Source: Maribacter dokdonensis DSW-8
GTDB lineage: Bacteria > Bacteroidota > Bacteroidia > Flavobacteriales > Flavobacteriaceae
DNA length: 64,000 bases
Reading direction: 5' to 3'
Assembly (NCBI RefSeq): GCF_001447995.1
Contig: NZ_LDPE01000001.1
Coordinates: 1,922,001-1,986,000, forward strand
Position 1 is the first letter of the stretch; each line of letters starts with the position of its first letter. The position numbers and the translations under genes are program-made. The notes below the pieces were generated by a model that was not told the DNA's origin, did not search any database, and worked only from the letters and a program-made list of their open reading frames with translations. Of this stretch, positions 44,715 through 48,662 are shown in pieces.

Positions 44715-45066
44715 TTTTATTTCCTATTTCGCCTAAATGCGTAAACTTAAACCCTTTATCGTATTTAAGTCCGTAACCAAAGATACGGTCCATAGCCGTA
44801 TGTATAAAAAGAATTGTACCTATTAATTGAACAATGGGTAGCATAAAGTAAATACCCACAAAATACAAAAGCACGGCAAAACCCCTGTGATGAAATAGGT
44901 TATAGGACATTGCCCCAATTTTAGCACCCAATAAATACCCTAACATAGAAACATCTGGAGTAAGTATCAAAACCGGCAACCACCACCATTGATAACCTAA
45001 TAGACCAAACATAAAAATACCAAGAACCATTAAGGCGAGTTCCTCTAATTTCAGTAGATTTTTCAT
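44707..45066 (-). CDS. DUF4260 membrane protein
   Basis: 119 residues with three to four helices; the DUF4260 signature GYQWWWLPVLILTPDVSMLGYLLG and YNLFHHRGFAV is clear. Small integral membrane protein of unknown role. It overlaps the cyclase-family gene upstream by 4 bp and the DUF4230 gene downstream by 8 bp. Confidence 0.87.
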   Translation of the reverse strand: MKNLLKLEELALMVLGIFMFGLLGYQWWWLPVLILTPDVSMLGYLLGAKIGAMSYNLFHHRGFAVLLYFVGIYFMLPIVQLIGTILFIHTAMDRIFGYGLKYDKGFKFTHLGEIGNKNG

Positions 45067-45815
45067 AATAATTCAATTTTATAAAGCACAGGTCTGCTTG
45101 GGCTGGCATCATTTTCAAAAGGTGCCACCTGTAGATTTAAAAAGTACGAACCGTCAATAATCGATTCGGGAACATAAATAAATTCTGTAATCGTTGCGTT
45201 TAATCTTACTTCCCCATTAAAATTCCAAAAGGCTTTATGTGCCAAAAGAGCACCGTTATCCTTTTCCTTATCTACAGATGGTAAATCTATCAGTAAATGT
45301 TCAATACCAAGTTCTCTTAAAAACACCATGGCATCTTCTAAAATGTATGGCGGATTGCTATTGGAGTACTGCTGGGTTAATTTCATAGCTGTATTTGGTA
45401 AGGTTCTTATCACCAATGCGCTAAGAGCTGTTCCACCTAAGGCTTTTTGTAACTGTTCTTTAGTAATGACCAAATCTTGGTTTTCTTTCGAAGGTGAAAT
45501 AGTAATGACCTCAGCCAGAAAGAAAAACTGTTGTAAATATTTGTTTACAGATTGATGCTCTCTTGATATATGCCCTACACATTCGGTATGTGTACCATGC
45601 GAATGCGGATTAAACCAAATATCATAAAAGTTAGTACTGGCACCTGCAGGAATACTACCAACAAAATCCTTATCCCGATGCGGTTCTATTATGGGAGCAT
45701 CAATATACCATGCGTTGACATTATCCTTTTTATTGGTTATGGCAATAGAAATATCCAATGGTTTAGTCAGGTCTATTTGATATTGGTTAGCATTGTGGGT
45801 AATGGTAGTTTTCAT
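45063..45815 (-). CDS. cyclase/kynurenine-formamidase-like family protein
   Basis: 250 residues from the ATG at 45815; the frame also opens at a TTG (45830), but the ATG is better placed. The metal motif of the family is seen as HSHGTHTECVGH (about 77-88), where the usual Asp of HGTHxDxPxH is Glu, with ALVIRTLPN and LLIDLPSVDKE further on. Family members are Mn- or Zn-dependent hydrolases acting on N-formylkynurenine or cyclic amides; the substrate is not known. First gene of the seven-gene run, facing the repeat array. Confidence 0.85.
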   Translation of the reverse strand: MKTTITHNANQYQIDLTKPLDISIAITNKKDNVNAWYIDAPIIEPHRDKDFVGSIPAGASTNFYDIWFNPHSHGTHTECVGHISREHQSVNKYLQQFFFLAEVITISPSKENQDLVITKEQLQKALGGTALSALVIRTLPNTAMKLTQQYSNSNPPYILEDAMVFLRELGIEHLLIDLPSVDKEKDNGALLAHKAFWNFNGEVRLNATITEFIYVPESIIDGSYFLNLQVAPFENDASPSRPVLYKIELL

Positions 45816-46238
45816 TTTAATTATGCTCAAATTACAAGGTTGTTTTGAGATAAGAAATTTACGACTTTTTGTGCGGTTATGATTAAAGCATATAGATCAG
45901 ATAAGTATTCGCGTTCCGGACCCGTTCTCGATACAATTTTTCATTTCCGTTTTACTCCAATAAAAAATCACTCGAACTGACAGTACATTTTACTTTTACC
46001 TTTACAAACGGATTATTCAACCACTAATGTCACTTCGAGTGAATTTACGAGGCACGAGTAAATTTGCATCGAGAAGCTCTCGTGTTCCGAACCTGTTCTC
46101 GATACAATTTTTTATTTCCGTTTCACTTCAATAAAAAACCACTCGAACTGACAGTTCATTTTATTTCAACCATTACAAACAGTTTATTTCAAGCACCAAT
46201 GTCTCTTCGAGTGAATTTACGAGGTACGAGGAAATTTG

Positions 46239-46260
46239 CCTGCCCGCCGTTGAGGAGGGT
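46239..46260. repeat. G+C-rich 21-22 bp insert inside A' arm 2
   Basis: TGCCCGCCGTTGAGGAGGG and flanking bases interrupt A' between AAATTTG and TATCGAG. The same insert, with one change at its left end, is in A' arm 4 (46937-46957) but is absent from arms 1 and 3. It explains the 193/192-bp pitches versus 171. Confidence 0.85.
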
Positions 46261-46474
46261 ATCGAGAAGCTCTCGTGTTCCGAACCTGTTCTCGATACAA
46301 TTTTTGATTTCCGTTTTACTCCAATAAAAAATCACTCGAACTGACAGTACGTTTTATTTCAACCATTATAATCAGGTTATTTGAAGCACCGATGTCACTT
46401 CGAGTGAATTTCGAGGCACGAGGAAATTTGTATCGAGAACTTTTTTGTTACTATCTAAATCGTATATTGAAAAT

Positions 46475-46765
46475 GTGATTACTTACTATGTTTATATATT
46501 AGAATGTGCTGACAACAGCTTTTATACCGGAATAACATCTAACCTAATTCAAAGATTAGAATGTCATCAATCTGGAAAATATAAGAATAGTTACACAAGC
46601 AAAAGACGACCTGTAATACTCGCTTTTTATTGTGAATTTACTGATCCTAACTTGGCTATAGAGACCGAAAAACGAATAAAAAAATGGTCTCAAGCGAAGA
46701 AGAATGCCTTGATAGCTGGGGAATATGAAAAATTACCGAATCTTGCGAAAAAGAAATTTCGGTAA
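46475..46765 (+). CDS. GIY-YIG nuclease inserted in the repeat array
   Basis: 96 residues from GTG at 46475; the frame opens at TTG 46445, but the earlier part has no family match. GIY-YIG residues: YYVYILECADNSFYTGITSN, the Arg in LIQRLECHQ, and the conserved Glu in AIETEKRIKKWSQAKKNAL. It is a single-domain UvrC-like endonuclease of the YhbQ type. It lies between A' arm 3 and the linker of unit 4. The hexamer CGAGAA stands on both sides (46434-46439, 46768-46773), and removing the 334 bp between their starts restores the 171-bp pitch exactly. It may be what moves the repeats; that is inference. Confidence 0.88.
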   Translation: MITYYVYILECADNSFYTGITSNLIQRLECHQSGKYKNSYTSKRRPVILAFYCEFTDPNLAIETEKRIKKWSQAKKNALIAGEYEKLPNLAKKKFR

Positions 46766-47038
46766 AACGAGAAACTTTCATGTTCCAAACCTGTTCTCGA
46801 TACAATTTTTCATTTCCGTTTCACTCCAATAAAAAATCACTCGAACTGACAGTTCATTGCACTTCAACCTTTTCAATCGAATTATTTCAAGCACCAATGT
46901 CACTACGAGTAAATTTCGAGGCACGAGGAAATTTGCTTGCCCGCCGTTGAGGAGGGTATCGAGAAGCCCGCGTGTTCCAAAACTCTTCCTCGATACGTTT
47001 TCTTGTAGAAATCACTCGAACTGACAGCATATTTTGTA

Positions 47039-48172
47039 CTATTTCAAATTCACCATAAACAGATCTGCCGCAATACCATCGGCTAAAAACATGCCTTTTT
47101 TAGTGGTTTTCAAAATATCACCATCCACAAACAGCAAGTGTTCTGCTATAAATTTATCAGCTTGCAATAAAACGTACTCTTTGTATTTAAGTCCGAATTC
47201 GGTTGAAATTCTAGATAAGGAAACTCCCCATATAGTACGCAAGCCTGTCATCACATACTCGTTATACTTATCGGTCGAAGAAAGTACCTCAACCTCCATA
47301 GGCAATATGTTCTGTGCTATGGATTTTATGTATTTGGGGTTGTTATTGATATTCCACCCACGTTGCACACCGTCAAAAGAATGTGCGGAAGGACCAACAC
47401 CTATATACTTTTTCTGTTGCCAGTAGGCAGAATTGTTTTGGGAGTAATAACCGGGTTTCCCAAAGTTGGAAATTTCGTAGCAATCAAATCCTGCTGACAA
47501 TAAGGTTTCATTCAATACGTTGAAATGCTCTTGAGTTTCTTCGTCGGTAGCGGGTGTAATCAACCCGTCTTCAACAAATTTCGCCAATGCCGTTTTTGGC
47601 TCAACTGTTAAGGCATAACTTGAAATATGAGGAATACCGAAACTTAGTGCTTTATCAATATTTTGTTTCCACCGATCTAAGGTCATATTAGGCATTCCGT
47701 AAATAAGGTCAATTGAAATATTATCGAAATGTGCGCTTGCCAATTGCAAACACTTTTCAGCTTCCAGAGCGTTATGCGCACGGTTCATCAACTTTAAATC
47801 CTCCTCAAAAAAAGATTGAATGCCAATACTCAATCTATTAATTGGGCTAGCTGCTAATTGTAGTATTTTCTCTTCGGATAAATCATCAGGATTCGCTTCT
47901 AAGGTAATTTCCGGGTTATCCACAACATCATAATATTCCCGAACCGCAGCAATCAGTTGTTCAATCTCTTCCGTCTCTAAGACCGAAGGTGTACCACCAC
48001 CAAAATAAATAGTAGCTACCTGTTCACCTAAAAATTCGGCTTTGCGCAATTCCAGCTCTTTACACAATGCCTTCACCATTGCTTCTTTCTTCCCCATTGT
48101 AGTAGAAAAATGAAAATCGCAATAATGGCAAGCCTGCTTGCAAAATGGGATGTGGATGTAGATTCCGCTCAT
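47039..48172 (-). CDS. hemW: radical SAM heme chaperone HemW
   Basis: 377 residues from the ATG at 48172 (the frame opens five codons earlier at a TTG inside the inverted repeat). Radical-SAM cluster Cys11-x3-Cys15-x2-Cys18 in IPFCKQACHYCDF, followed by the HemW-type GGGTPSVL and the C-terminal HemN_C domain (GVSLSRISTEFG). It inserts heme into respiratory proteins and is distinct from coproporphyrinogen oxidase HemN. The repeat array ends right at the stop codon, and the left inverted repeat of the IVP element lies 5 bp upstream of the ATG. Confidence 0.93.
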   Translation of the reverse strand: MSGIYIHIPFCKQACHYCDFHFSTTMGKKEAMVKALCKELELRKAEFLGEQVATIYFGGGTPSVLETEEIEQLIAAVREYYDVVDNPEITLEANPDDLSEEKILQLAASPINRLSIGIQSFFEEDLKLMNRAHNALEAEKCLQLASAHFDNISIDLIYGMPNMTLDRWKQNIDKALSFGIPHISSYALTVEPKTALAKFVEDGLITPATDEETQEHFNVLNETLLSAGFDCYEISNFGKPGYYSQNNSAYWQQKKYIGVGPSAHSFDGVQRGWNINNNPKYIKSIAQNILPMEVEVLSSTDKYNEYVMTGLRTIWGVSLSRISTEFGLKYKEYVLLQADKFIAEHLLFVDGDILKTTKKGMFLADGIAADLFMVNLK

Positions 48173-48177
48173 TTGTT

Positions 48178-48662
48178 CAATTAACAATTAGCAATAAGCA
48201 ATTATCAGTTTGCAATAAAAAATTACATATTAGCTGTTTTCTAATAATCATCTAATTCTCACTTATTTTTAATTCTTGTAGATTTAAGTATAGCGAACAT
48301 AATTTTAGAAAGCTCATCAGCTTTTTCAATTAACCCATTCGCAATTGACAATTCAATATATTCTGAATCCTTTAAAAGGCTTAACCAATATTTAGTCTCT
48401 AGGCTTTCTTTATAAGCTATTGAAATCTTAGAAGAAAAATCTGGTTTTGAAATTGCTCCGTTAGCTTCTGCAATATTAGCTCCAATAGATGTCCCTGCTC
48501 TTAAAAGTTGTTTAGATAAAACATATTCCCTCTTTTTCTTAGTAAGTTCTTGATATAGTTTGACAATTTTTAAAGCAAAATCATAAGACTTACTCAAAAG
48601 AGGATTTTCATTATTCATTGCCAATTAATTATTGTTAACTGCTTATTGCTAATTGTTAATTG
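48178..48662. mobile_element. inverted-repeat-bounded element carrying a four-helix-bundle gene
   Basis: A perfect 23-bp inverted repeat begins CAATTAACAATTAGCAATAA at 48178-48200 and is mirrored at 48640-48662. It is a run of CAATTAR-like heptamers. Inside is only the four-helix-bundle gene. The element sits between ruvC and hemW, both on the minus strand. 23S rRNA intervening sequences have terminal inverted repeats around the same gene family, so this resembles an IVS outside rRNA. Boundaries are clear; mobility is inferred. Confidence 0.75.
48259..48618 (-). CDS. four-helix-bundle protein (23S rRNA-IVS family)
   Basis: 119 residues from ATG at 48618 (the frame opens two codons earlier at TTG). 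Family hallmarks: SYDFALKIVKLYQELTKK, LSKQLLRAGTSIGANIAEANGA, and KESLETKYWLSLLKDSEYI. All-helical, pentameric in solved relatives, often encoded within 23S rRNA intervening sequences and also scattered in Bacteroidota chromosomes; molecular role not settled. It is enclosed by the 23-bp inverted repeats. Confidence 0.9.
   Translation of the reverse strand: MNNENPLLSKSYDFALKIVKLYQELTKKKREYVLSKQLLRAGTSIGANIAEANGAISKPDFSSKISIAYKESLETKYWLSLLKDSEYIELSIANGLIEKADELSKIMFAILKSTRIKNK

Follow-up and report, generated by a model that had tools for sequence, protein, structure and literature searches.

A proposed REPtron-like family of GTC-tagged palindromic repeats and a single-domain GIY-YIG nuclease, seen from a locus in Maribacter dokdonensis

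REPs are widespread bacterial repeats, most of which split into the GTAG and CGTC superfamilies (Di Nocera et al. 2013, PMC3733652). In the parts of that survey drawn on here, GTAG-class REPs are tied to RAYTs, their proposed enzyme, and the CGTC class was left without one in 2013: CGTC-REPs 'apparently lack a dedicated transposase', and in CGTC-positive species no tyrosine transposase gene was flanked by CGTC sequences (PMC3733652). CGTC repeats were recorded there in five phyla including Bacteroidetes, mostly in Alphaproteobacteria, with A. lipoferum and S. meliloti among the species named. The RAYT REPtrons, in which GTAG-REPs are joined to the RAYT Y1 tyrosine transposase, offer a functional analogue to what we describe below (PMC2817692, in the portion used here).

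Among the papers listed by searches of PMC literature, there was no report tying a GIY-YIG nuclease to REPs. Another kind of system to which the present locus can be compared is the free-standing GIY-YIG homing endonuclease, to which I-TevI and I-BmoI belong.

The locus lies in Maribacter dokdonensis DSW-8 (genome G000), within a stretch of 64,000 bp (C1:1922001-1986000) that we call the window. Between a putative cyclase gene and a hemW-like gene, the window carries an array in which four palindromic units, all with the arm order A-B-B'-A', are followed by a closing half unit; a small nuclease gene stands between the third and fourth units (Table 1). The repeat copies start at window positions 45899, 46070, 46263 and 46768, giving spacings of 171, 193 and 505 bp, and the longer 193-bp pitch is mostly due to 21 extra bases within the A' half of unit 2. 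Chance does not account for the array: with at most two mismatches allowed, arm TTCTCGATACAATTT matches six times in the window against 0.36 expected, a number that none of 100 shuffles reached, and unit 3 (46275-46440) folded as single-stranded DNA with a z of -4.67, none of 200 shuffles folding as well. At Rfam gathering scores a tRNA was the sole match in the window. We also observed that the 21-base stretches in the A' halves of units 2 and 4 are nearly the same (CCTGCCCGCCGTTGAGGAGGG and CTTGCCCGCCGTTGAGGAGGG); similar stretches occur in the arrays of G021, G022 and G026, as if a second small element sat in the loop. Beyond the array, close to hemW and to a ruvC-like ORF, lies a 121-aa ORF (48259-48624, minus strand), which we take to resemble the four-helix-bundle protein of the 23S rRNA intervening-sequence kind.

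Table 1. Features of the array and its flanking genes, in window coordinates
Feature	Position	Strand	Basis or remark
Palindromic unit 1 (arms A-B-B'-A')	45924..46076	.	Repeat spacing and arm matches
Palindromic unit 2; extra 21 bases 46239-46259 in A' half	46095..46269	.	Repeat spacing
Palindromic unit 3	46288..46440	.	Repeat spacing and fold
Left junction: CGAGAA ending the A' arm, and leader up to the nuclease start; like a decayed linker copy	46434..46474	+	
GIY-YIG nuclease gene, 96 aa from GTG 46475 (TTG 46445, 106 aa, also possible)	46475..46765	+	
Right junction: linker CGAGAAACTTTCATGTTCCAAACCT, then unit 4	46768..46792	+	
Palindromic unit 4; similar 21-base stretch 46936-46956 in A' half	46793..46966	.	
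Linker and half unit (A-B only); array end just past the hemW stop codon	46967..47035	.	
Putative cyclase gene (PF04199), flanking	45063..45830	-	Next to hemW in 29/30 Maribacter loci read
HemW-like radical SAM gene (PF04055, PF06969), flanking	47039..48187	-	

The repeats of the window are a divergent form of CGTC-type REPs, with the same tag and a different stem start and loop. Where the CGTC-REP tag is CGTC or its TGTC or CCTC variant, the B' arms start with TGTCACT in three of four cases and with TGTCTCT in the other. The described stem of 8-9 bp starting with AT, the loop of 4-5 bases and the CCA tail are not found here: the stem begins with CTT or similar, the loop is long and the tail is other than CCA. 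Two repeats from relatives of the nuclease locus do, by eye, fit the description in the consulted parts of PMC3733652, namely CGTC-ATCCCCGC-GAAG-GCGGGGAT-CCA at the Azospirillum locus L197 and TGTC-ATTCCCGC-GCAA-GCGGGAAT-CCA at loci L268 and L269 of the Bacteroidota genome G132. In common with CGTC-REPs are the GTC tag at one end, the short imperfect palindrome and the oppositely oriented pairs; unlike them, a GIY-YIG nuclease lies between the repeats, and the window's own repeats are longer-looped with another stem start.

A REPtron resembles the locus in being a small single-gene element whose flanking short palindromes are also dispersed in the genome. In contrast to REPtrons, the enzyme here is GIY-YIG and not HUH/Y1, G000 has no Y1_Tnp match and the tag is GTC, not GTAG. 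With the I-TevI and I-BmoI kind the nuclease shares its catalytic domain, the existence of alleles with and without the gene, and signs of exchange. However, it is a single domain without a separate DNA-binding domain, it sits in palindromic arrays and its insertion point is variable. We propose a REPtron-like system with a GIY-YIG nuclease in place of the Y1 transposase, for which we infer the cleavage, the target and the copying mechanism. The locus would be a member, we think probably, of a family that combines GTC-tagged palindromic repeats with a cognate single-domain GIY-YIG nuclease.

The earlier note on this DNA had named the inserted gene as a GIY-YIG nuclease, and its match to PF01541 bears this out (E 3.8e-17, 62.8 bits against a curated cut-off of 22.6). 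Translation likely begins at GTG 46475, where the homologues also start, giving 96 aa, and not at TTG 46445. In an alignment of the window's protein with 34 of the 120 homologues among the matches listed (389 found), Y7, Y17, R27, E65 and N89 are invariant in 35/35 sequences; these are presumably the conserved catalytic positions of the GIY-YIG fold (two Tyr, Arg, Glu, Asn). The nearest among the named homologues are Maribacter proteins. dN/dS was 0.04-0.26 in nine of ten pairs computed, with a dS of about 1.8 or more, near saturation, in three, and an undefined dS in the tenth pair. These ratios show a nuclease under purifying selection, its conserved residues intact in the alignment.

In fold comparisons the protein matched UPF0213 first and then, weakly, the Slx1 branched-DNA nucleases. 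Structure-dependent cutting would be predicted from three features taken together, namely a single domain that lacks a separate DNA-binding part, the weak match to Slx1 and the strong tendency of the repeats to form hairpins. The fold matches and the purifying selection would also suit a pair that is useful to its host, in which an Slx1-like structure-specific resolvase trims the cruciforms of palindromes that serve as terminators or mRNA stabilisers, and a palindrome arm does often start no more than a few bases from the nuclease stop codon. We consider a host function of this sort quite unlikely. The gene is patchy (present at 8/30 cyc-hemW loci read), its tree has the phyla intermixed and many genomes hold several such genes, all of which a mobile element fits better.

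The earlier note had taken the array to record a target-specific insertion, marked by a duplicated hexamer. That reading was right in spirit and is partly supported: the observation is sound, with the hexamer detail over-read. CGAGAA is present at 46434-46439 and 46768-46773, and removing 334 bp does turn the 505-bp distance into the 171-bp pitch (505-334=171). The hexamer is no special duplication, as it ends A' arms and opens linkers at 46070, 46263, 46434, 46768 and 46960, and its 21 occurrences in the window are within chance (at least 21 in 17/100 shuffles). In G026 a longer stretch of 14 bp, CGAGAAGCTCGCGT, is identical at both nuclease junctions; the left-junction linker is decayed in other relatives. 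At 27 family loci with a similar empty spacer nearby, no target duplication emerged from an ungapped overlap test. This negative is weak: the test is insensitive, failing at one of the 27, L112, which is the window's locus in G008, so that decayed copies are missed. As a general signature, hexamer target duplication found no support (0/27 loci in this weak ungapped test).

Insertion 'exactly at one point' holds for ten nuclease copies in eight Maribacter genomes at this locus and does not extend to the family. The arms flanking the nuclease could be classified in 70 of 80 family loci, being A'/A in 40, A'/B' in 12, B/B' in 9 and of other kinds in 9, with 10 loci unclassified. A fixed insertion point therefore found no support across the family.

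A hemW piece is found in 35/36 Maribacter genomes, and the cyc-hemW interval was read in 30 of the 35 matching loci. Array and nuclease are together in eight of the 30 (G000, G021, G035, G018, G022, G008, G026 and G025). For G021, the array (L113) contains a run of N, and the stretch L084 ends before the cyclase gene, which a further stretch of the same genome, L053, shows beside hemW. The comparison of arrays with and without the gene, suggested in the earlier note, revealed an array allele without the nuclease at the same place in G033, consisting of one and a half units with the linker intact. The note had held that nuclease copies away from repeats combined with a lack of empty-site alleles would speak against its idea; this combination does not occur, because the G033 allele is such an empty site. 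Partial palindromic units are present at cyc-hemW in G017, G003, G028 and G012, and BLAST found no palindromic unit in the other 17 of the 30 loci read.

Two nuclease copies, 506-508 bp apart, are present in G035 and likewise in G022. Placed on the hemW tree, the nuclease state needs four changes, with G025 clustering with two array-free genomes, and the group that hemW forms of G026, G000, G021 and G035 is rejected by the nuclease tree (AU p 0.0014, for a group picked on the hemW tree once identities were known). The conflict between the trees would indicate exchange, via homing or via ordinary recombination through the flanks; both the conflict and the tandem copies can also come from ordinary recombination. 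The two trees, the tandem copies in G035 and G022 and the occurrence of nuclease-bearing and nuclease-free alleles at one locus are also consistent with a plain free-standing homing endonuclease that copies only itself into palindrome junctions, the palindromes being passive landing sites multiplied by other means. We regard homing alone as unlikely, since the position varies between A'/A, A'/B' and B/B' junctions, the duplicated block of G132 described below takes in flanking REP sequence, and nuclease subclades each stand among different palindromes, enzyme and repeat apparently being paired.

Arm cores outside nuclease arrays had a median of 3.0 in 14 nuclease-positive Maribacter genomes vs 1.5 in 22 others (p 0.016, in a comparison that ignores kinship), a modest surplus. 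Here 'positive' means a nuclease match better than about E 1e-37, and the array share of G018 was estimated from sequence. Contig C1 of G033 has eighteen exact TGTCACTTCGAGTG cores, several in arrays and densest at about 1.20-1.33 Mb. Despite these 18 exact arm cores G033 gave no nuclease match at E<=1e-10; the nuclease may have been lost there, or movement may be in trans. These cores and the small size of the surplus both speak against a simple form of the proposed system.

The palindromes could also have been moved in trans by a RAYT or another transposase, with the GIY-YIG gene trapped among the repeats as a passenger. At E<=1e-5, 9/36 Maribacter genomes do have Y1_Tnp matches, and GTAG-class REPs are linked to RAYTs in the parts of PMC3733652 cited above. 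We nevertheless consider this very improbable. No Y1_Tnp match was found at that threshold in 27/36 Maribacter genomes, G000 included, nor in six of the eight nuclease-bearing genomes at cyc-hemW (G025 and G026 have some), which makes RAYTs an unlikely driver here. A passenger would hardly be of the same family in 79/80 loci, and in the same parts of the survey CGTC never flanks tyrosine transposase genes in CGTC-positive species. Movement by a RAYT in trans found no support in the Y1_Tnp comparison.

The 80 loci are the best of 477 confirmed loci, and form a close family in Flavobacteriia. The association of nuclease and palindromes noted earlier holds throughout this family, the palindrome core GTCANTTCGAG (at most one mismatch) lying within 500 bp of the gene in 79/80 loci; the single core-negative locus, L180, has A arms. 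The 100.7 kb lying no more than 500 bp from the gene held 432 cores and the remaining 658 kb of the same loci held 195, or 4.3/kb near the nuclease vs 0.3/kb elsewhere. The stems of the palindromes in these members covary, as comparison of their paired positions shows. Over all half units found, triplets were complementary in 392/461, with a mean of 169 and a maximum of 199 in shuffles; the bases that follow GTCA and TCGAGAA paired as C-G in 169 and as G-C in 201 of 406. The total counts are inflated by kinship, which the shuffles ignore; taken as a majority per locus, triplets were complementary in 67/74. More distant cousins of the nuclease (L068-L081, 43-52% identity) often have tagged palindromes of other sequence around them, TGTCAGGTCGAGCGCAGTCGAGACC and TGTCAGTCTGAGTGCAGTCGAAGACC for example. 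That different nuclease subclades stand among different palindrome sequences would suggest that enzyme and repeat travel as pairs.

To describe the flanks more widely we scored the 300 bp upstream of each gene against the reverse complement of the 300 bp downstream, with a threshold of at least 14; the comparison does not register arms that run in the same direction. The threshold was reached in 50/79 close-family loci and in 0/118 distal controls. It was also reached in 4/8 of loci L060-L067, 7/14 cousins, 14/27 Bacteroidota loci (L206-L234, the best-scoring and thus non-random matches), 5/9 alphaproteobacterial plasmid loci (from 21 hand-chosen matches in 69 records) and 1/1 Planktothrix locus; the scoring left out 1/80, 2/29 and 1/11 loci. 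Proteins of the UPF0213, YhbQ and YazA type are like the nuclease in size and fold (PDB 1zg2, 1ywl). Unlike it, these and other GIY-YIG proteins outside its clade had no flanking inverted repeat at the loci sampled (0/10 for yhbQ, yazA, Neisseria, Vibrio, Cupriavidus and similar loci).

In the protein tree, from which 10 loci dropped for length are omitted, one clade (SH-aLRT 98, 50 rows) joins Bacteroidota, alphaproteobacterial and cyanobacterial genes with the phyla intermixed, and the yhbQ-type rows fall outside it (on a short alignment with many forks open). The inverted-repeat score was at least 14 in 33/50 rows of this clade and lower in 17/50. A pattern of tag plus core, picked after seeing examples and therefore controlled by reversed and scrambled patterns, was then counted in 49 rows, one locus occurring twice, that comprise 42 clade rows and seven length-dropped rows added by similarity (L062/L156, L065/L137, L067/L210 and L188/L208 are loci under two ids). 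In the 48 distinct clade loci its density was 4.63/kb within 200 bp of the gene vs 0.15/kb at 0.7-1.3 kb, and it occurred at least once in 32/48 and on both sides in 23/48. With the close family removed the densities were 4.40 vs 0.11/kb (at least once in 25/40, both sides in 18/40). The pattern is missing in 16/48 loci, some of which show variant tags or cores by eye and others none. No comparable excess was seen for the reversed or scrambled patterns, for a tRNA-side clade (8 loci, see below) or for 13 yhbQ-type and other loci, the latter group also including L198, L206 and L215. A stricter search for tagged hairpins, which asked for 6 of 7 pairs in a 7-bp stem, gave a weak signal, in 18/49 rows and at 1.80 vs 0.48 per kb, because stems mismatch after the third or fourth pair, and the tag-plus-core test took its place. 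Together these flank tests show one nuclease clade enriched for flanking GTC-tagged imperfect palindromes. Chance neighbourhood or an assembly artefact seems a negligible explanation, given a structure common to eight Maribacter genomes at the same locus and distal controls that stay flat in the core, inverted-repeat and tag-plus-core tests.

Filled and empty sites exist beyond Maribacter, and the genome comparisons show nuclease genes that have been duplicated inside a genome along with palindrome sequence from their flanks. In Azospirillum lipoferum the 617-bp gap between sufB and sufC holds a nuclease gene with an inverted REP pair on each side, tags outward; without an insert the gap is 91 bp in A. 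ramasamyi, 87 bp in A. oryzae and 129 bp in B510. In the eleven Azospirillum rows listed besides A. lipoferum, coverage of the filled stretch is 66-69%, and the exact boundaries of the insert are unreadable because the gaps have diverged. G132 carries the same nuclease gene twice, in REP arrays separated by about 6.4 kb, as an identical 385-bp block of palindrome, gene and palindrome. The left end of the block is inside a REP and its right end just after a REP tag; past this right edge one copy continues in its array and the other enters a different sequence. The G132 gene is inside the multi-phylum clade, beside Sinorhizobium and Azospirillum genes.

For the REPtron-like system we suggest the following course. 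The nuclease would recognise its cognate palindrome, probably once this is extruded as a hairpin or cruciform, and would nick or cut it at the tail or linker end. Repair from another copy could then multiply the palindromes, and the nuclease gene as well when the template carries it. This would be homing by recombination and not cut-and-paste, and would be in keeping with the arrays in tandem, with a position that varies and with the lack of a clear general target duplication. On a broader view, the single-domain GIY-YIG clade may be the dedicated mobilising enzyme of CGTC-type REPs in Bacteroidota, Alphaproteobacteria and Cyanobacteria, a counterpart of RAYT and REP of independent origin that copies hairpin repeats by structure-specific cleavage and recombination; our own judgement on this wider claim is evenly divided.

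What most deserves pursuit is the link between GTC-tagged palindromes and a nuclease clade found in three phyla. A single-domain nuclease of 96 aa that accompanies such repeats is a concrete, testable candidate, and it may supply the enzyme hitherto lacking for the spread of a common kind of bacterial DNA repeat. Such a candidate would open to experiment the question of how a large class of intergenic DNA arose. It may also partly explain the many small GIY-YIG genes in Bacteroidota, where all 80 genomes have PF01541 matches, up to 23 in one (all GIY-YIG kinds mixed).

The earlier note had also suggested looking for other GIY-YIG genes of the strain at repeat junctions; other such genes of G000 do lie elsewhere. 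G000 has nine PF01541 matches, and we scored the flanks of five others besides the nuclease, leaving aside L004, L007 and L008, which lie in frames of 459-601 aa. The inverted-repeat score was at least 14 in four of the five. Of the five, three lie at tRNA genes (L003 and L005 at C1:2030601 and 2031003, L006 at C2:381899), L002 has an inverted repeat, and L009 has neither.

The protein tree also contains a second GIY-YIG clade (support 97, 8 rows), outside the main one, in which a tRNA gene lies just upstream in 8/8 loci. Five of the eight rows scored at least 14, through terminator-like or tRNA repeats. In other Bacteroidota, tRNA-side loci are L216, L218, L219, L223, L225 and L272-L274. A further cyanobacterial observation concerns L204 on plasmid p1 of Planktothrix agardhii (801-1085), where a REP-flanked GIY-YIG gene, which pairs with a Bacteroidota gene in the protein tree, stands between an MmeI-type restriction gene and DISARM drmA. 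At the tRNA-side loci of G000 and in three arrays elsewhere, the gene is accompanied by repeated partial copies of a tRNA 3' half with its terminator, as tandem units at a pitch of about 345-402 bp. This second clade looks as though it pursued the same strategy with tRNA genes as its target.
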